Source: Cryomorphaceae bacterium (GTDB lineage: Bacteria; Bacteroidota; Bacteroidia; Flavobacteriales_D; Crocinitomicaceae). From it: 55,510 bases of DNA. The stretch is taken from the NCBI GenBank assembly GCA_027490665.1, contig JAIXXP010000117.1, positions 1 to 55,510 of the forward strand, read 5' to 3'. This document shows, in pieces, positions 17,738 to 27,886 of the stretch (within the stretch, counting starts at the first letter, position 1; the number at the start of each line of letters is the position of its first letter). Below the pieces are notes generated by a model. The model was given only the letters and a program-made list of their open reading frames with translations, had not been told where the DNA came from and searched no databases. Position numbers and translations under genes: made by a program.

Positions 17738-19609
17738 TTAACGCCCCAAATGGACCAATAACACAGAAATATCACTAGGAGAGACCCCAGAAACGCGCGC
17801 TGCCTGACCAATTGTTGCCGGTTGGATTTTCGAGAGCTTTTCCTTTGCTTCAATGCTCAAGCTTTTAATTTGAAAATAATCTAGCGTATTTGAAAGTTGA
17901 AGATTTTCCAAGCGCTGATGTTTTTGAGCTTGTTCTTCTTCGCGATCAATATAACCTTCATACTTCAATAGGATTTCAGTTTGCTCTACAGCTAATGGTT
18001 CTTCATTGAGTACTTCCGCCACAGCGGCCGCTGTTTGTGTGCTTACTGATACTAAATCCGTCAAAGAAATGTGTGGACGAGTGATAAGGGAGCTCGCCTT
18101 TACTTGTTGGTTAATAGGCGCAGAATCTTTTGCAACTAATAAAGGGTTTGCTTCATCTGGACTGATCCCTATCTCGCGCAATTTTGTTTTCAATTGTTTG
18201 GTTAAAACTTGCTTGCGTTCCACTTTATCTAATGCTTCTCTATCAGCTAATCCTAGTTCAAAACCTAATGGAGTTAGTCTTTCATCTGCATTGTCTTGTC
18301 TGAGCAAAATTCTAAATTCTGCTCTACTCGTAAACATGCGATAGGGTTCATTTGTGCCTTTCGTAATGAGGTCGTCAATTAAAACACCTATATAAGCCTC
18401 ACTTCTCGTTAATATAAACTGCTCTTTTTCGTGAGCCTTTTGATGTGCATTTATTCCTGCCATCAATCCTTGACAAGCTGCTTCTTCGTATCCAGTTGTT
18501 CCATTGATTTGTCCTGCAAAAAACAAGTTGTTAATCAATTTAGTTTCTAAGGAGTGCTTCAATTGCGTCGGAGGGAAATAATCATATTCTATAGCATAGC
18601 CCGGACGAAACATCTTCACTTTTGCGAAACCTGGTATAGATTTTAAAGCTGCATACTGGACCTCTTCCGGTAAGGAAGTGCTGAAGCCATTTACATAGAT
18701 TTCAACGGTATTCCACCCTTCAGGTTCTACAAAAATTTGATGCCGATCTCTGTCCGCAAAGCGCGAGATCTTATCTTCAATACTTGGACAATAACGTGGG
18801 CCGCTACTTTTGATTGCCCCATTGAACATGGGGGAGCGATCAAAACCAGTGCGCAATAATTCGTGGGTGTCCGTATTGGTATAAGTAATATGACAAGGAA
18901 GTTGTTTAACTAATGCACTAGTGTTGCCATAGCTAAATTTAGAAGGGTTTTCATCTCCATCCTGTACTTCCATTTTGGTATAATCTAAACTCCGACCATC
19001 TACTCTCGGAGGAGTTCCTGTTTTCATTCTACCTGCTTCAAAACCTAATGCAACTAAAGACTCTGTTAATCCAGTTGCAGCCTTTTCACCAGCCCTGCCT
19101 CCACCGAATTGTTTCTCACCTAGATGTATCAAGCCGTTTAAGAAAGTGCCATTTGTGAGCACAACGGTTGTTCCATATACTTTAGTTCCCATGGCAAGTT
19201 GCACACCAATAATTGTGTTTTGCTCGATTAAAACACCTACACACATGTCTTGCCAAAAATCTACATTTGGATTTTGTTCTAATAAATAACGCCACTCCAA
19301 AGAAAACATGACGCGGTCATTCTGTGTGCGGGGAGACCACATTGCTGGACCTTTGGACCTGTTCAACATTCTAAATTGCAAGGCGCTTTTATCACTTACA
19401 ATTCCAGAACCACCACCTAATGCATCGATTTCTCGTACTATCTGTCCTTTAGCAACACCACCCATTGCTGGATTACAACTCATTTGTGCAATGGTGTTCA
19501 TGTTCATTGTCACCAACAAAACCTTACTACCCATTCGTGCAGCGGCGTTTGCGGCTTCGCAACCGGCGTGTCCAGCACCAACTACAATTACATCGTATTT
19601 ATCTAACAT
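17738..19609 (-). CDS. mnmG: tRNA uridine-5-carboxymethylaminomethyl modification enzyme MnmG (GidA)
   Basis: MnmG, with its partner MnmE, uses FAD and methylene-THF to build the 5-aminomethyl-type group on U34 of certain tRNAs, which aids decoding. The 623 residues have the N-terminal FAD motif VVGAGHAGCEAANAA (about 9-24), CNPAMGGVAKGQIVREIDALGG, the TGTPPRVDGRSLDY segment, NGTTGYEEAACQGLMAGINA and RAEFRILLRQDNADERLTP, all hallmarks of MnmG. It is the last gene of a four-gene run after DUF4175, an RsbW-like ATPase and ybeY. One parS-type site ends nine bases before its ATG, so bound ParB could affect its expression. The gene is often close to oriC in other bacteria. Confidence 0.96.
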   Translation of the reverse strand: MLDKYDVIVVGAGHAGCEAANAAARMGSKVLLVTMNMNTIAQMSCNPAMGGVAKGQIVREIDALGGGSGIVSDKSALQFRMLNRSKGPAMWSPRTQNDRVMFSLEWRYLLEQNPNVDFWQDMCVGVLIEQNTIIGVQLAMGTKVYGTTVVLTNGTFLNGLIHLGEKQFGGGRAGEKAATGLTESLVALGFEAGRMKTGTPPRVDGRSLDYTKMEVQDGDENPSKFSYGNTSALVKQLPCHITYTNTDTHELLRTGFDRSPMFNGAIKSSGPRYCPSIEDKISRFADRDRHQIFVEPEGWNTVEIYVNGFSTSLPEEVQYAALKSIPGFAKVKMFRPGYAIEYDYFPPTQLKHSLETKLINNLFFAGQINGTTGYEEAACQGLMAGINAHQKAHEKEQFILTRSEAYIGVLIDDLITKGTNEPYRMFTSRAEFRILLRQDNADERLTPLGFELGLADREALDKVERKQVLTKQLKTKLREIGISPDEANPLLVAKDSAPINQQVKASSLITRPHISLTDLVSVSTQTAAAVAEVLNEEPLAVEQTEILLKYEGYIDREEEQAQKHQRLENLQLSNTLDYFQIKSLSIEAKEKLSKIQPATIGQAARVSGVSPSDISVLLVHLGR

Positions 19610-19617
19610 TGTATTTG

Positions 19618-19633
19618 TGTTTCACGTGAAACA
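19618..19633. promoter_or_regulatory. parS-type ParB-binding site 1
   Basis: TGTTTCACGTGAAACA is the perfect 16-base parS palindrome recognised by chromosomal ParB/Spo0J proteins. It lies in the 31-base gap between the mnmG start (19609) and the ybeY stop (19641). A second identical core lies 35 bases away, centre to centre. No parA or parB gene is in this window. Confidence 0.85.
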
Positions 19634-19640
19634 ACAGGTT

Positions 19641-20078
19641 TTAAAATTGGTTTGTTTCACGTGAAACAAACCTTTGAATATAAAAATCCTCTTTCTCGCG
19701 CATGATCACTATATCATCTTTACTTTTGTCTTTGTAGCCACATAAATGAAGCACACCATGAAAGACAACCCGATAAAACTCCTGCTCATAAGCAAGATTC
19801 ATAGAAAGCGCATTGTCTTCAACACGATCTAAAGAAATCATAATATCACCTGATACTTCAGGATGATTAGAATAATCAAAAGTAATTACGTCTGTAAAGT
19901 AGTCGTGGTTGAGGTATTGTTTGTTAACCTCTAACAAGTAATCATCGTCAGTGAAAACAATACTTAAATCTCTAAGAGATTTACCTTCATTTAAAACAAG
20001 ATTCTTTACAGCTTGCTTTAAATCCCTTTTGGAAACAAATGATGGTAGTTTTACACCAAGGTTAATGATTGTCGTCAT
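19641..20078 (-). CDS. ybeY: Endoribonuclease YbeY
   Basis: YbeY is a metal-dependent RNase involved in 16S rRNA 3' end maturation and ribosome quality control. The 145 residues contain the family core TDVITFDYSN and FHGVLHLCGYKDKS. The first two metal-binding histidines are present, but the third (HGxLHLxGxDH in most bacteria) is Asp here; I believe this HLxGYKDK form is normal in Bacteroidota. The last ten codons run through a parS palindrome (19653-19668), so the C-terminal FVSRET is also a ParB-binding sequence. It overlaps the RsbW-like gene by four bases (20075-20078), indicating coupling. Confidence 0.92.
   Translation of the reverse strand: MTTIINLGVKLPSFVSKRDLKQAVKNLVLNEGKSLRDLSIVFTDDDYLLEVNKQYLNHDYFTDVITFDYSNHPEVSGDIMISLDRVEDNALSMNLAYEQEFYRVVFHGVLHLCGYKDKSKDDIVIMREKEDFYIQRFVSRETNQF
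19653..19668. promoter_or_regulatory. parS-type ParB-binding site 2, inside ybeY
   Basis: A second perfect TGTTTCACGTGAAACA lies in the ybeY 3' coding end. The symmetry extends to a perfect 24-base palindrome at 19649-19672, four bases more on each side than the 16-base core. Its centre is 35 bases from that of site 1. Confidence 0.85.
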
Positions 20079-20488
20079 TTATGAAAGTAAAGATTTACTA
20101 TGCTTCCTGTATTCTGAAACTCTACTTCGTCGGCAAGATTCTTCATTAAAAACACACCTCTACCACTGTCTTTGAGCAGATTTTCTGGTGCCGTAGGGTC
20201 GGGCAGGTCTTCATATGAGAATCCATTTCCTTCATCTTTAACCTGTATGCAGAAGATATCGTTTTGATTGGCTACTTTAATTTCAACCTTGGCATTTGGA
20301 TTATTCTTATTACCGTGTTGAATGGCATTATTTACCGCTTCAGACACAGCTATCAATACATTTCCAAATGCATCTTCCTGTACACCAAATTCATCACAAA
20401 CGCTACCAACTATCTTTTCAACGTCTATAAGTGACTGATAATCAGATGGTAGAACCACTTCTGTTACTATAGAAAAACCTTCTTTCAT
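20075..20488 (-). CDS. RsbW-like ATP-binding protein (anti-sigma kinase fold)
   Basis: This is a 137-residue single-domain GHKL ATPase of the RsbW/SpoIIAB type (HATPase_c_2). The N box is SEAVNNAIQHGNKN (about 49-62), the G1 box VKDEGNGFSYED and the G2 box SGRGVFLMKNLAD, all intact, so ATP binding is likely. RsbW-type proteins phosphorylate STAS-domain antagonists and sequester sigma factors, but no STAS protein, PP2C phosphatase or sigma factor is nearby. It lies between DUF4175 and ybeY, overlapping ybeY by four bases, an order I recall in other Flavobacteriia. Its target here is unknown. Confidence 0.85.
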   Translation of the reverse strand: MKEGFSIVTEVVLPSDYQSLIDVEKIVGSVCDEFGVQEDAFGNVLIAVSEAVNNAIQHGNKNNPNAKVEIKVANQNDIFCIQVKDEGNGFSYEDLPDPTAPENLLKDSGRGVFLMKNLADEVEFQNTGSIVNLYFHK

Positions 20489-20507: not shown

Positions 20508-23500
20508 TCACTGGTTTAAATAAGCGTCTGATCTTTGTTTATAGTATAACTGTAAAGCAGGATCAATAGACTTGATCAATTCCAATTCATTCCATTTGGA
20601 CCTTTTATACTCATCAAATCGAATTTGGTTACCTTTTTCTACATCTTTTGCTGATTGTGCTTCTCGTTTCTCTTCGTAACCTCTTTTCATGATTGCATTC
20701 TCGCTCTCTAACAAACGTGTGAGAATCTCTTTTTGTCTTTGAATCGTTTGCGGATTCACACGTTTAAGAAGTAAATCTTTCTCTTGTTGTTCGAGCTCTT
20801 TCAATAAAGGATTCAGTTGATTTCCTAAGCCTTTTCCTTCTTTATTTAAATCTTGCTTGAGTTGTTCTAAACGCTGCCTAATTGCTGTTTGCTCTGCAGC
20901 CATACGGGCCAACTCTTTTGAACCTAAACCAGGTAAACCTTGACCTGCCTCACCTTCTTTACCAGGTGCCGATCCAGGTTTAGAACCAGGTTTATTTCCG
21001 CCTGGATTAGACCCTTTCTGCATTTGCTCTAGCTGCTTCTTAAGCATTTCTTTCATATCACCCGAAGACATTGACTGACCAGGTTTAGGTCGTCCTTTTC
21101 CAGGGTTTTCACAGCTGCCACTTCCTTGCATTTCTGCATTCATTTGTTGCTGCATAGATTGCAAAGCTTCATTGAGCAATAAGGCAAGATTATTATAGGA
21201 AGTCATGACTAATTGCTGATGCTTTTCTATATCCTTCTTTTTATGGTCGTCAATGGCTTCGATTGTTGCTTTCTGTTGTGTTGCTATGGCATTCAATTCA
21301 GCATCAATAAATGTCGCAATTTTAGGTTGTCTTTTAGCGAGGGCTAACAAACTATCTTTGATGATTTTGGTATCGTCATTGATTCTTTGTTGACGTCTTC
21401 CTAGCTTTCTATAAACAGGATCTTTGGTACTGATTTTCACAAAATGTTTTTGTGTTTTCTCTTGATCAAAACTTAGATTAATCAGACCTTCTAGGATAGC
21501 TCTCAGGCTTTCCATATCTTCTTCCTGTTGCTGCTTATTAGATTGATTCTGCTTTGCATTTAATTGCGAAGACATAGCCTTCATACCATCGGCAGCTGAT
21601 TTTTGTTTTTCATTGGCTTTTTTAGATTTACCCTCAGAAATTTCTTGTGCTGCATTTTGTAAGTCTTCAGATACTTGCTGTTCTAATGCATCGAGTATGT
21701 CTAGGTCAAGTGGTCTTGCTAAATCTTTATTTAATTCTTGAACCTCTTTTAATTCCTTCTTTACTTCTTCAAACTTCTCGTTGAGTTCTTTTTGTTTTTT
21801 GAGTAGATCTTCCTTACTAAGATTTTGACTCTCCTCTTTTATTTCTTCTTGCTCTTTAGCGAGTTGATCTAATTCTTTTTCAAGGTCATCTATGCGTTCA
21901 TTGACTTGCATTTTCTTCAGTAATTCCAAACTTCTATCTAATTGTTTGTTCATATCCTCAGAACTCTGTTCTAGCTGCTCTAATTTATCTTTAGACTGTT
22001 CCTTATCTTGTTCTTTTAACAAAGCCTCTAATTGATCTAAAAGGGCCTTTAATTCATCATCCATTACTTCTTTAAGTAATTCTTCTAGAAGTGCTTGTTT
22101 CTCTAATAATTGTTCATCAAGAGGAGAAAGTTGATTTTTTTGATCTGTACTTTGTTTCATTTCTTCCAAACTCTCTTGAATTTGTTGTTGTAGTTGTAGT
22201 TGTTCTTGTTGTAATTTTTCTACTTTGTTGAGTTTATTCCAATTATTGGTTTTTGACTGACTGGTTTCTTTCTTTAATTGCTGTACATCTTTATTGAACT
22301 GTTGCATTTTCTTAAAGACATCTTCTAAATCTTTGATTTGTTCATTTTGATCTTCTTTGCGCTGCTCGTTTAATTCTTCTAAACTCGGTAGTTCATAAGT
22401 ACGTGAATCGCTCTTTGTAGCTTTATGTCCATTAACGCCGTCATTATCGTAAACCACAAAGTAATAAGTGATTATATCATTTAACTTTATTTTCTCACGT
22501 CTAAAATCTACAGCAAAATCAAACTTTTGTAATGTTCCTTTAACGGCTTCTACATCAACTTTTTGAGTTTTCTTTTCACCATTAGCTTGTTCTATTGTAT
22601 AAACAAACTTCAAACTACTCAGACCGTAATCATCGGTGATAGTACCCTGAAAATACATTCTTCCATCATAAATAGAATCCTGTTCTTCTTGAATTTCAAT
22701 TAAGGGATGTGCATCTTTAAGAACCTCAATCTTTGAGCTTATTGTATCTGTTTTAGAAGTTTGTGCGTTTGTTAGTACTAATTTTTGACGACCACTACTA
22801 CGATATTCTTGTGTAAATTCACTGTAAATAGGATCTAGTTTCTTAGAAGTATTTTGCCACAATAATTGCAATTTACTAGCATTCTTTGTCGCTATTTCCC
22901 AACGCACTATTGTACCTTCTGGTAAGTTCAAGTCACCGGTGTTTTCATAAGTACGATCTGGTTTATTGAGGTACTTTGGAAAAATACAATGAGCGCGCAG
23001 CGTACCTAATAATGCCCTGCGATTGACGCGTAACCATTGTTTTGGACTATTGAACTCATTGGTAGTGAGGTAAAAAGCAGTGGACTTTTGTAATTGATTG
23101 AATTTGAAAGAAAAAGTATTGCGTTTTTCTTGTTTCATTAGAAACTTACCTTGATCAAGTATGACATACAATTGTTTTGGTAAACTATTGAATCCTGGAG
23201 CAGGTTTCACTTTTACAGAAAGTTCAAAAGAACTACCTTCTTCTAGATTATTAGGTATTTCACCAAATATAAATTCATATGGATTCGGCTCCTGAAATTC
23301 TTTAGTATACTGTAAAACTCTAGCTGAACCCTGCGTTAATATTTGTGGCACAAACCACGCTACACCTAAAAAACCAGCTAATACCGGAATGAGGTATTTC
23401 AAATACTGGCGTTGTGCTTTGTATTGAATAGCCGATTCAAAAGAAATAACACTCAAGTGCTTAGCTCGTTGTGCAATACTCGCTGAAATCAGATCGATAT

Positions 23501-23873
23501 TACCTAAGTTGTCGTTAAGATCTTGTTGAAGTTGGATGGTATTCTTTAATTTATCGGCAACATCAGGAAAAAATACACCAATTATTTCAGCAGCTTGTAA
23601 ATGTGAAATCCTTTTACCGAAAGACCATAAACGACTTAAGGGTATACCTATAAAACGAATGAATAAATAACTTTGAAGTACAATGAATCCAAAAAATAGG
23701 ATACCTCTAACAAGAACAGGAAATTTTCCAAAAAATTCTAAGGAACTCGTTAGTAAAAAAGCCAGTAGAAAAAACAACGTAAACAATAAACTCCCTCTTA
23801 CTAATTGATTTTTATAATACTTCCTGATAAAAGCATCAATTTGATCAATGAGTATATGATATGAATTTTGCAT
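20508..23873 (-). CDS. DUF4175 family membrane coiled-coil protein
   Basis: This very large protein (1121 residues) belongs to DUF4175, a family of unknown function. Three membrane segments occur near the N-terminus (about 28-48, 55-77 and 161-176). A beta-rich region follows (about 190-490, e.g. FELSVKVKPAPG and DDYGLSSLKFVYTIE). A very long Glu/Lys/Gln coiled coil then runs from about 500 to 900, next a Gly/Pro/Ser-rich linker (about 955-1000) and a final helical part. The topology suggests an inner membrane anchor with a large extracytoplasmic or cytoplasmic rod. It is the first gene of the run leading to mnmG, with a full -7 box at 23905-23912. The function is not known and I do not propose one. 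Confidence 0.8.
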   Translation of the reverse strand: MQNSYHILIDQIDAFIRKYYKNQLVRGSLLFTLFFLLAFLLTSSLEFFGKFPVLVRGILFFGFIVLQSYLFIRFIGIPLSRLWSFGKRISHLQAAEIIGVFFPDVADKLKNTIQLQQDLNDNLGNIDLISASIAQRAKHLSVISFESAIQYKAQRQYLKYLIPVLAGFLGVAWFVPQILTQGSARVLQYTKEFQEPNPYEFIFGEIPNNLEEGSSFELSVKVKPAPGFNSLPKQLYVILDQGKFLMKQEKRNTFSFKFNQLQKSTAFYLTTNEFNSPKQWLRVNRRALLGTLRAHCIFPKYLNKPDRTYENTGDLNLPEGTIVRWEIATKNASKLQLLWQNTSKKLDPIYSEFTQEYRSSGRQKLVLTNAQTSKTDTISSKIEVLKDAHPLIEIQEEQDSIYDGRMYFQGTITDDYGLSSLKFVYTIEQANGEKKTQKVDVEAVKGTLQKFDFAVDFRREKIKLNDIITYYFVVYDNDGVNGHKATKSDSRTYELPSLEELNEQRKEDQNEQIKDLEDVFKKMQQFNKDVQQLKKETSQSKTNNWNKLNKVEKLQQEQLQLQQQIQESLEEMKQSTDQKNQLSPLDEQLLEKQALLEELLKEVMDDELKALLDQLEALLKEQDKEQSKDKLEQLEQSSEDMNKQLDRSLELLKKMQVNERIDDLEKELDQLAKEQEEIKEESQNLSKEDLLKKQKELNEKFEEVKKELKEVQELNKDLARPLDLDILDALEQQVSEDLQNAAQEISEGKSKKANEKQKSAADGMKAMSSQLNAKQNQSNKQQQEEDMESLRAILEGLINLSFDQEKTQKHFVKISTKDPVYRKLGRRQQRINDDTKIIKDSLLALAKRQPKIATFIDAELNAIATQQKATIEAIDDHKKKDIEKHQQLVMTSYNNLALLLNEALQSMQQQMNAEMQGSGSCENPGKGRPKPGQSMSSGDMKEMLKKQLEQMQKGSNPGGNKPGSKPGSAPGKEGEAGQGLPGLGSKELARMAAEQTAIRQRLEQLKQDLNKEGKGLGNQLNPLLKELEQQEKDLLLKRVNPQTIQRQKEILTRLLESENAIMKRGYEEKREAQSAKDVEKGNQIRFDEYKRSKWNELELIKSIDPALQLYYKQRSDAYLNQ

Positions 23874-24421
23874 AGGATAAAACTACTACTTCATTTGCTA
23901 GCTACAAAATTAACAGCTAAAGCGCTTCTTAATTAGATTAATATATTTCTTTTAAAATTATTTCTAAAAAATTTACTACTACTATTAACCTTGTTGATAT
24001 GTGTATAATTATTTGTGTATTTAGTTGCTTTCTTGTTTACACTGGTTTTATCAACATGATTTCAACTGATAAATATTTACAAATAACTGATAAATAAGTA
24101 TTTGTATATTAATAAACAATTAATAATCTAACCCCGTTGTTCAAAAATATATAGTTTTTGAAGTCTTCATAAAGTTTGAAAAACGTTCATAAGCAATGTA
24201 AAAAGAAAGCTTAAAAATAGTTGTTATCTCAACTACATTTGAGCTTATATAAAACAACTAGAAATCCAAAAAACGTTATAATTCGTTTTCAACATCTTAT
24301 AAACGAATACAAACATACTTTAGTTTATAAATAGAACCTGTTTACTGTATTGTAGCGCGTTCTAATTTTCTAATGTTTATAAGTTTAAACCCAAAATAGT
24401 ACTTAATTTTACAAGAAAAAC
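23874..24421. other. 548-base AT-rich region without genes; candidate replication origin
   Basis: No gene or tRNA is visible. Three lines I counted had about 25% G+C. It contains TTATCAACA at 24048-24056, one mismatch from the DnaA box TTATCCACA, and a weaker reversed copy (TGTTGATAT) at 23992-24000. A direct repeat, AACTGATAAATA, occurs at 24064-24075 and 24085-24096, exactly 21 bases apart (two helical turns). GTTTATAA occurs three times (24323, 24375, and reversed at 24297). The left end holds the DUF4175 promoter. With two parS sites 4 kb away this could be oriC, but canonical DnaA boxes are lacking; a long regulatory leader for rpiB is the main alternative. Confidence 0.35.
23905..23912 (-). 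promoter_or_regulatory. -7 promoter box for the DUF4175-to-mnmG operon
   Basis: On the minus strand this reads TAATTTTG, a full TAnnTTTG match, 31 bases before the DUF4175 ATG. Confidence 0.5.
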
Positions 24422-24850
24422 ATGATTATTCCAATAGGTGCAGATCACGCAGGTTTTCAAACAAAACAAGTTCTAATAGAATACTTAATATCCTTAGGTC
24501 ACGAAGTTAAGGATTACGGTTGTTTTTCTGAAGCAAGCATTGATTACCCTGATTATGCCCATCCTGTTGCTGAACATGTAGCCGCTCATCCTGGAACGTT
24601 AGGTATTCTTCTTTGTGGCTCAGGAAATGGCATCAGCATGACAGCTAATAAACATCAAGAAATTCGTTGCGCTTTGTGCTGGACAACAGAAATCGCTGAG
24701 TTGGCACGCTTACACAACGATGCAAATATCATCTCTTTACCAGCTCGTTTTATTACAGAAGACCAAGCAAAAGAAATGGTAGCTTGTTTTTTAAATACGG
24801 CTTTTGAAGGAGGTAGACACGCAACACGTGTGGCTAAGATATCTTGTTAA
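24422..24850 (+). CDS. rpiB: Ribose 5-phosphate isomerase B
   Basis: This enzyme interconverts ribose 5-phosphate and ribulose 5-phosphate in the pentose phosphate pathway, feeding the PRPP synthetase encoded at the left of the window. The 142 residues match RpiB/LacA: IPIGADHAGFQTKQ at the N-terminus, the active-site loop LLCGSGNGISMTANK with the catalytic Cys, and HNDANIISLPARFI. The start is the only ATG available. A TAATTTTA element at 24404-24411 resembles a -7 box with one mismatch. The stop shares TTAA with the convergent OmpA-like gene (24847-24850). Confidence 0.93.
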   Translation: MIIPIGADHAGFQTKQVLIEYLISLGHEVKDYGCFSEASIDYPDYAHPVAEHVAAHPGTLGILLCGSGNGISMTANKHQEIRCALCWTTEIAELARLHNDANIISLPARFITEDQAKEMVACFLNTAFEGGRHATRVAKISC

Positions 24851-25951: not shown

Positions 25952-27349
25952 TCAGTCTATTTTTAGTTTCAACCTTCCGCTTAAGCGCAAGTCTACAACT
26001 AAAAAACCAGTCGTCAAAAGTAGGTTCTGTACACTCAGTTCGTCTATTTTACCTTCAAGTCTTACCCCCTTTGTTATTTCGCTATTGATTTGTTGTTCAA
26101 TGGCGGCTTTTGATTCTGTAAGGATAGGGCTTAAATCAACGTCTATGTTCGCAGTAAGTTGTTCTTTTAGTTTTGAGTTCAGCATCCATTTGGCCGAGTG
26201 CAACAATACACTTTTAGTACGCAATTCATAATCAACTTCTCGGATTCTTAAGTGTTGTTGCAGATCAATATAAGGTTGAACAACTAAATAAAGCGTTCCT
26301 TTTTTTGTACCGGAAAACTGTACAGATAGCACCAAGCGCTCTCCTTGAGGCCCAAGAATTTGTACTTTATCTATGTTAATGTACTTTTTATCGGTGATTT
26401 TAATTTGCTGTGTATCAAAGTCGCGCAACAAAAAGCGGTTAATCGAATCATAAGATGCAACAGTCCGCAGATTAAAAATGCTTGTGGTTGTAGCATTTGG
26501 CTGAGGCGTATTTTTAGGTAAGCGCGATTTCGGTAAAGCTACGGCATTTGTAGAAAATAAAGGTTGGGCAACCATTTGCGTAGTAAAATAGGCTTTTTGA
26601 CCCTCGTTTTTTAAAGTCAGGTCTTCAATCCCAATTTGCTGCGGCCGCAAATAAAAGTAACCGTAAGGTTCAACTAAAATAGGTTCTTGAAGTGACTTCC
26701 AAACATCGGTCATGGTGCGGTGTATAGGAGCAGAAGCCAATTGCTTATCAACTTCTTTTTCGAGTTGTACCAAGGAGGCTCTTACTTCTTTTTCAATGGT
26801 TGGCGTTGCGTCGTACCTAAAAACCGTGATTTTACAAGGGTCAATTAGTGTAAATTCATGTAGTTTAGTTTGAGACTTTAACTCAAAGTTTTCGCTAATT
26901 GCAATTTTGCTTTTGTAAGAAATGTGCACTTTTCTTTTCGGTTCACCTACACCACACGAAGCATAAACACGCGGAATAATACATGTTGGTTCTCCAAAGA
27001 TATTTTGGCAATCTGGGCAGTAAGACAAACTTAGGTCAAACTTGCCGTCTATATCACACAAAACCTCTTTATCTTTCAATTGAAAAGAAAGCGGGTCGCG
27101 TTCAAAATGGTAATTGTAGCGGATCCCTTCGCATTGATTTTCCTCCCCGTTGAACTTTTTGTCTAGGCTTTTATCGGCTTCTGTTAAATAAGGCTTCAGT
27201 GCTAATTCAGTTTGTAACGAAAGAAAGGAGGGTTCTGGAGCGCTTATCTCAGCTACTACTTTGAAGTCTGGAACTGGTAATTCTATTGTAATTGTTTTAC
27301 AAGAAAATAAACCTAAAAGCAGAAAGAGAACAATATTGATATACTTCAT
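25952..27349 (-). CDS. DUF4403-like lipoprotein
   Basis: This is a 465-residue predicted lipoprotein: the signal LFLLLGLFSC places the lipid-bearing Cys near residue 17. The body consists of beta-rich repeats and amphipathic stretches consistent with DUF4403, a Bacteroidota family with a possible lipid-binding (BPI/SMP-like) fold; this is from memory of the family and is moderately certain. A cluster of cysteines (CDIDGKFDLSLSYCPDCQN and ASCGVG, about 97-133) is unusual and could form disulfides. It overlaps the upstream small secreted protein by four bases and precedes the OmpA-like gene, suggesting a joint envelope role. Confidence 0.6.
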   Translation of the reverse strand: MKYINIVLFLLLGLFSCKTITIELPVPDFKVVAEISAPEPSFLSLQTELALKPYLTEADKSLDKKFNGEENQCEGIRYNYHFERDPLSFQLKDKEVLCDIDGKFDLSLSYCPDCQNIFGEPTCIIPRVYASCGVGEPKRKVHISYKSKIAISENFELKSQTKLHEFTLIDPCKITVFRYDATPTIEKEVRASLVQLEKEVDKQLASAPIHRTMTDVWKSLQEPILVEPYGYFYLRPQQIGIEDLTLKNEGQKAYFTTQMVAQPLFSTNAVALPKSRLPKNTPQPNATTTSIFNLRTVASYDSINRFLLRDFDTQQIKITDKKYINIDKVQILGPQGERLVLSVQFSGTKKGTLYLVVQPYIDLQQHLRIREVDYELRTKSVLLHSAKWMLNSKLKEQLTANIDVDLSPILTESKAAIEQQINSEITKGVRLEGKIDELSVQNLLLTTGFLVVDLRLSGRLKLKID

Positions 27350-27864: not shown

Positions 27865-27886
27865 AAAAAAAGGGGCCTAGGCCCCT
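27864..27886 (-). terminator. Terminator of icd
   Basis: The perfect palindrome AGGGGCCTAGGCCCCT (27871-27886) is followed on the minus strand by seven T residues (A run at 27864-27870). It lies six bases past the icd stop. The T run reaches the start codon of the next gene. Confidence 0.85.

Follow-up and report, generated by a model that had tools for sequence, protein, structure and literature searches.

The chromosomal ParABS systems of other bacteria are the closest described counterparts of the locus considered here. In those species the nucleation of ParB, its spreading as a CTP clamp and the ParA-driven movement of origins are established (PMC7333895, PMC7022226), and a review names the location of the par operon inside the 20% ori domain as the conserved feature (PMC7022226). 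Sites may fall within genes: nine of the ten parS of P. aeruginosa are predicted to do so (PMC4368675). Closer to the present organism, a Hi-C study of gut Bacteroidetes used parS clusters together with GC skew to place ori, found that ori is not always at dnaA, and in the text compared reports no known condensin in its two Bacteroidetes (PMC10197239). Among the matches listed in a search of PubMed Central open-licence titles and abstracts, none describes parS at a ybeY-mnmG junction, and the portion of a P. gingivalis paper that was compared holds nothing on parS (PMC5771137).

Here we describe twin parS-type palindromes at the ybeY-mnmG junction of a draft genome (2.79 Mb in 139 contigs, 92% complete). 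Very probably the pair forms the principal parS (centromere) cluster on the chromosome of a Crocinitomicaceae-type bacterium and its main ParB loading site. This reading rests on the sites, their conservation, their independence of reading frame, the presence of ParA and of a ParB with parS-type residues, and closeness to a candidate origin; from these data we infer binding, spreading and segregation.

Twin palindromes at the ybeY-mnmG junction

The window, by which we mean the whole stretch of 55,510 nucleotides that was analysed (contig 99 of the draft), carries two exact copies of TGTTTCACGTGAAACA, the 16-bp palindrome that is the consensus of chromosomal parS. Site 1 (19618-19633) occupies the gap between ybeY and mnmG, beyond the ybeY stop and 8 bases ahead of the mnmG ATG, and site 2 (19653-19668) lies in the 3' end of ybeY, where it is read VSRET in the context FVSRETNQF. 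The two genes are both on the minus strand: mnmG (gidA) at 17738-19609 (Pfam GIDA, E 1.2e-161) and ybeY, for the endoribonuclease YbeY, at 19641-20078 (Pfam YbeY, E 2.4e-27). Two conserved neighbours lie on the same strand, a gene for a small histidine-kinase-like ATPase (HATPase_c_2, 20075-20488) and one for a DUF4175-type coiled-coil protein (20508-23873). The latter stands beside ybeY-mnmG in most of the stretches, and its relative in one genome, G192, gives a weak Smc coiled-coil match.

The first-pass annotation had reported two exact 16-mers 35 bases apart, the second of them inside a perfect 24-base palindrome (19649-19672), and had argued that such a pair could not be due to chance. 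Both copies, their 35-base spacing and the longer palindrome are indeed present in the window; palindromy stops at 16 bases around site 1 and at 24 around site 2. Chance would supply about 0.001 exact copies per 2.79 Mb from base composition, or 0.0014 under a second-order model of the window. A scan of the window at up to three mismatches returned no TGTTTCACGTGAAACA match besides the twin sites, and a search of the whole draft found just these two exact copies and, as the next best, a single match with two mismatches on another contig. Since the genome is a draft of 139 contigs and 92% completeness, more sites may be missing from it. The window also holds a GC-rich perfect 16-bp palindrome, AGGGGCCTAGGCCCCT, at 27871-27886, between two genes.

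Among the matches listed, the nearest DUF4175 records come from MAGs filed as Flavobacteriales (full-length identity up to 97%), Crocinitomicaceae or Cryomorphaceae; Fluviicola is further off. We place the source genome in Crocinitomicaceae (Bacteroidota). Some records with this locus type carry misfitting names (L279, L208, L216, L224, L231 and others): one is a complete chromosome labelled Glaciecola amylolytica, and there are MAGs labelled Chryseobacterium gleum, Chitinophaga pinensis, Sphingomonadales and Polynucleobacter.

Conservation of the DNA word in relatives

At one mismatch or fewer, the site was found in 57 of 61 genomes of the genus (37 of the 38 more complete ones), in 186 of 200 genomes of the family (142 of 146 more complete ones, with one to five copies each) and in 201 of 247 genomes of a phylum sample. 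The same word read backwards, used as a control on the family sample, gave nine sites in eight genomes. The single more complete genus genome without a site at this threshold, and the 46 of 247 phylum genomes without one, count against our main reading.

A locus set independent of the motif was formed from 80 named loci fetched by DUF4175 alignment, 77 of which hold ybeY. Every one of these 77 has a parS-like site (a CACGTG core with at most two mismatches, or at most one mismatch) within 400 bases of the ybeY stop, and 75 have one at the stricter limit of one mismatch; each of 60 scrambled palindromes, searched as controls, scored 0 of 77. At least two sites lie near the ybeY stop in 63 of the loci and a single site in the other 14. 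These loci are related and do not represent 77 independent events, and some of the records are likely the same genomes as in the other samples. Placement of the site beside genes was checked within the class: among 30 loci picked by the motif along with the phylum sample, all of one class, mnmG was in the 3-kb stretch in 24, four of which have the site solely 3' of mnmG; another has ybeY at a contig end, and five hold neither gene (one of them lacking the CACGTG core). The four and the five, too, speak against our main reading. A parS-like site was also seen at the mnmG 3' end (L142, 9368-11268; L143, 9154-11054; and many further loci), so that mnmG is flanked on both sides. At the level of DNA sequence, then, the sites are conserved in relatives; the genomes do not show many scattered copies that relatives fail to retain, the pattern that would have spoken against the first-pass annotation. 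Relatives keep the parS word at the same spot, and what we see is very probably an ordinary kind of segregation site in an unusually constant place.

Neither the distance between the sites nor the extension of the palindrome is part of what is kept. In the 63 loci with at least two sites the spacing ranges from 24 to 81 bases, with a median of 38 and a commonest value of 35 (14 of 63). On this range, seen in related loci, we reject a fixed 35-base spacing and, more tentatively, a helically phased one, and the single-site loci likewise tell against the 35-base spacing as a fixed feature. As for the flanks, among 63 distinct ybeY sites 47 and 43 have complementary first and second pairs outside the 16-mer, but only 24 and 29 have complementary third and fourth pairs; the corresponding figures for intergenic sites, pairs one to four, are 18, 14, 27 and 16 of 72. 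The 24-base palindrome, present in the window, is not conserved in full in relatives, where its third and fourth flank pairs are not retained, and we reject it both as a kept unit and as an extended form of parS.

Paired palindromes between two genes could also act in RNA, as a hairpin, terminator or processing site. In the transcript of this region (19600-19690, minus strand) the two sites do pair as a 17-pair stem of -23.2 kcal/mol (z -3.6), and none of 200 shuffled sequences was as stable. This stem is a by-product, because twin copies of one palindrome must pair. Moreover, 14 of the 77 loci have one site and no partner for it, the spacing in the others is variable, and a terminator scan gave no match at the pair: its two terminator-like matches lie upstream in ybeY. 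The scrambled palindromes would fold alike and are absent from the region, which indicates that the word itself, and not mere palindromy, is kept. We therefore consider a role in RNA structure very improbable.

A DNA word that lies in a coding sequence might be conserved because of the peptide that it encodes, and 56 of the 72 sites in or over the ybeY end do share one frame, giving VSRET- or VPRET-like tails. However, the frame is not constant across the 77 loci: inside ybeY, 56 sites are in that frame and seven in another, five and four cross the stop codon in two frames, and a further 72 are intergenic, with two more lying after ybeY in stretches without mnmG. At the end of ybeY the word is thus read as VSRET, VPRET, FHVK or FHVE, or else it runs over the stop codon or sits just outside the gene. 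In one group the site begins 133 bases before the ybeY end (NVSRET); one genome has it 343 bases ahead of that end. The occurrence of the same word in several frames, over the stop or outside ybeY argues that DNA, not peptide, is under selection.

Codon positions point the same way. In 16 close loci (at least 65% DUF4175 identity, the window included, selected without regard to the motif), 14 of 16 columns are invariant in the ybeY site and 15 of 16 in the intergenic partner, which is equally conserved, versus 33 of 90 in the preceding part of ybeY; conservation is also high over the first 60 bases of mnmG (39 of 60 columns). All six third codon positions in the ybeY site are invariant, versus two of 30 in the preceding 90 bases, and over 78 loci the two sites average 0.93 and 0.91 in column identity, versus 0.57 at the preceding third positions. 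We take this to mean that the word is kept for its own sake and that the YbeY tail follows. Peptide conservation as the cause of the site is ruled out by the frame changes, and the chance that it explains the conserved DNA without help is slighter still than that of an RNA structure. The proposal that the last ybeY codons are under double constraint is supported, as regards constraint at the DNA level, by the same third positions. An alignment of ybeY 3' ends from relatives, which the first-pass annotation had suggested as a check, upholds it for the 16-mer, kept at third positions, and not for the full 24-base palindrome. The overlap with coding sequence is real in ybeY, but it is ordinary for parS: in P. 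aeruginosa nine of ten sites are predicted to lie in genes.

The same annotation had suggested that the site next to the mnmG start may tie expression of that gene to ParB binding. More generally, the sites could have a second role as an operator through which ParB represses or tunes mnmG or ybeY. The mnmG ATG is indeed close to site 1, and repression of adjacent genes by ParB at parS3/parS4 is described in P. aeruginosa (PMC5521831); by analogy with that case, control of mnmG by ParB is possible in principle. Against it, anything between 22 and 183 bases separates the ybeY stop from the start of mnmG among the 73 loci with both genes, and the sites shift accordingly; in some loci sites also lie 3' of mnmG. 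Scanning for promoters gave no sigma-70-like site at the pair, with a consensus that may not fit this phylum. Nothing in these results backs the suggested tie to mnmG, and we regard an operator function as unlikely, less so than the RNA and peptide alternatives.

The ParA-ParB system and a candidate origin

A parS cluster calls for a ParB, and its absence would have weighed against the first-pass annotation. The source genome encodes one HTH_ParB protein of 300 amino acids, which also has ParB_N and ParB_C; its gene immediately follows that of a ParA-like ATPase (270 amino acids, Pfam AAA_31). The parA-parB operon spans 309-2013 of contig 118 (L004), a different contig from that of parS. We take the frame following parB, by its look, to be dapB.

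Residue positions that set parS versus Noc specificity have been described by Jalal et al. (PMC7383237): R173 and G201 mark the parS type, where Noc has Q and R. In our own reading of the helix-turn-helix stretch, on which the numbering depends, the ParB of the source genome has the equivalents of R173 and G201 and so belongs to the parS type. The same holds for all 27 ParBs found beside ParA, the source ParB included, and each of the 27 carries K or R at 184, as about 28% of ParBs do (PMC7383237). A remote second homologue in genome G448 (L331) is without residues of the R173/G201 type. Noc is a paralogue of ParB and its sites are similar (PMC7383237), and a Noc-like nucleoid-occlusion system might own the sites in place of ParB; but the only HTH_ParB protein in this 92%-complete genome adjoins ParA, and it has R173/G201-type residues rather than the Q173/R201 of Noc. 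We give this alternative next to no weight, the least of any considered, and retain parS as the identity of the sites.

A 548-bp intergenic gap (23874-24421), between the DUF4175 gene and rpiB (24422-24850, plus strand) and 4.2 kb from the parS pair, is 76.5% A+T and holds three TTATNNACA motifs. The most A+T-rich 500 bases of the window begin at 23926 and nearly coincide with this gap, and the cumulative-skew minimum of the window is at 26069. A corresponding gap before rpiB is present in relatives; in other loci 3.6-9.8 kb separate rpiB from the DUF4175 gene. Across 23 related stretches, the window included, the 560 bases before rpiB contain 60 TTATNNACA motifs versus 9.4 in shuffles, and TT[AT]TNCACA occurs 26 times in these gaps versus 3.1; over the whole window, enrichment of TTATNNACA is mild (17 versus 10.7). 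None of the 23 gaps has an exact TTATCCACA box, and the most widespread 9-mer of the gaps, in 15 genomes, equals the shuffled maximum of 15 and shows no excess. We take all three patterns to be DnaA-box-like motifs, and they may not be this group's own.

Skew in relatives roughly fits an origin here. In G469 (20 sampled windows) the skew turns from negative to positive between 3.91 and 4.14 Mb, and parS is at 4.12 Mb. In G078 the AT peak beside rpiB (0.131 Mb) is 16 kb from parS (0.148 Mb), and within the first 400 kb cumulative skew is lowest at 0.136 Mb, 12 kb from parS. For G192, a stretch of 400 kb has its most AT-rich 500 bases in this gap, about 4.3 kb from parS (1.119 Mb); of the windows sampled for skew there, all 13 up to 0.96 Mb are zero or negative, those at 0.98-1.12 Mb are mixed, and 17 of the 19 from 1.14 Mb on are positive. 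Over the same 400 kb, however, cumulative skew reaches its minimum at 0.979 Mb, 140 kb from parS, which counts against the fit. We propose the AT-rich gap beside rpiB as a candidate oriC. The central claim made at the outset for this DNA, that these are parS sites which serve a chromosomal ParABS system and most likely lie close to the origin, stands, with oriC itself a prediction to be set beside the distant skew minimum of G192.

On the parS reading, ParB made from the operon on the other contig would nucleate on both sites, load as a CTP clamp and spread over ybeY and mnmG toward the neighbouring origin, and ParA would then separate the duplicated origins. Selection would act on the DNA word and on its position near oriC, and the YbeY tail would read through whatever parS DNA happens to be there. 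Two close sites probably boost local ParB loading or provide redundancy, with their exact spacing immaterial.

Comparison with known systems

The position of the par operon departs from the textbook arrangement. In all nine single-contig relatives, parB lies 15.4-48.8% of the circle away from parS; these are eight of 19 class genomes, whose sizes were rounded, and G469 (the genome behind L279, record CP034120.1). For G252, G448, G317 and G432 parS was placed by pattern match rather than by its neighbouring genes, and in G432 another site, with one mismatch, lies 87 kb from parB. Where a multi-contig genome has both on a shared contig, the distances are 1.64 Mb (G078), 2.5 Mb (G408), 0.73 Mb (G230) and 0.63 Mb (G460). 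In G469, parB (1.76 Mb) falls where skew turns from positive to negative, between 1.61 and 1.84 Mb, opposite the origin; two isolated windows, at 1.15 and 2.30 Mb, have values close to zero and of the contrary sign. The source genome has parAB and parS on separate contigs. The wide separation of parB and parS on the long contigs of relatives counts against our main reading.

The condensin search covered the Smc and ScpA models. ScpA (PF02616) gave no match in any of 14 genomes, the source included, with controls positive in nine of 14, and Smc (TIGR02168) gave nothing over the cut-off in four of four genomes, with controls positive in 10 of 14. The absence of ScpA matches in all 14 suggests that ParABS may work here without Smc-ScpAB. 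One could see in this a Bacteroidota lineage with a ParABS variant, its centromere fixed at ybeY-mnmG beside oriC and hopping between frames, its par operon outside the ori domain, and without Smc-ScpAB; we rate this broader proposal at slightly below an even chance. If it were true, parS-ParB would manage partition by itself or load a condensin of unknown kind.

Four features raise the interest of the locus somewhat: its constant address, the shifts of frame, a par operon far away and the lack of ScpA matches. It offers a concrete centromere and a candidate origin for a mostly uncultured group, an anchor for orienting draft genomes, and a clear natural example in which selection on DNA overrides the protein sequence, with one word in several reading frames. 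Should the missing Smc-ScpAB and the distant operon hold lineage-wide, the group would be a system in which to ask what role parS-ParB has without condensin and whether par genes need proximity to oriC.

Among known systems, Noc and its NBS sites resemble the present case in having a paralogous DNA binder and similar 16-bp palindromes, but differ in that the contact residues of the ParB here are of the parS type. The gut Bacteroidetes (PMC10197239) share the phylum, the parS clusters and the lack of a known condensin; they are other organisms, and the genes at their parS clusters are unnamed in the text compared. Relative to the chromosomal ParABS of B. subtilis, Caulobacter and P. aeruginosa, the present system differs in that parB is outside the ori domain in the relatives measured, that ScpA was not found, and that the site is at ybeY-mnmG in all neighbour-selected loci holding ybeY. 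It is like them in its 16-bp word, which is the same, in having more than one site, near oriC there and near a candidate oriC here, with some sites in coding sequence, and in its ParA-ParB operon.
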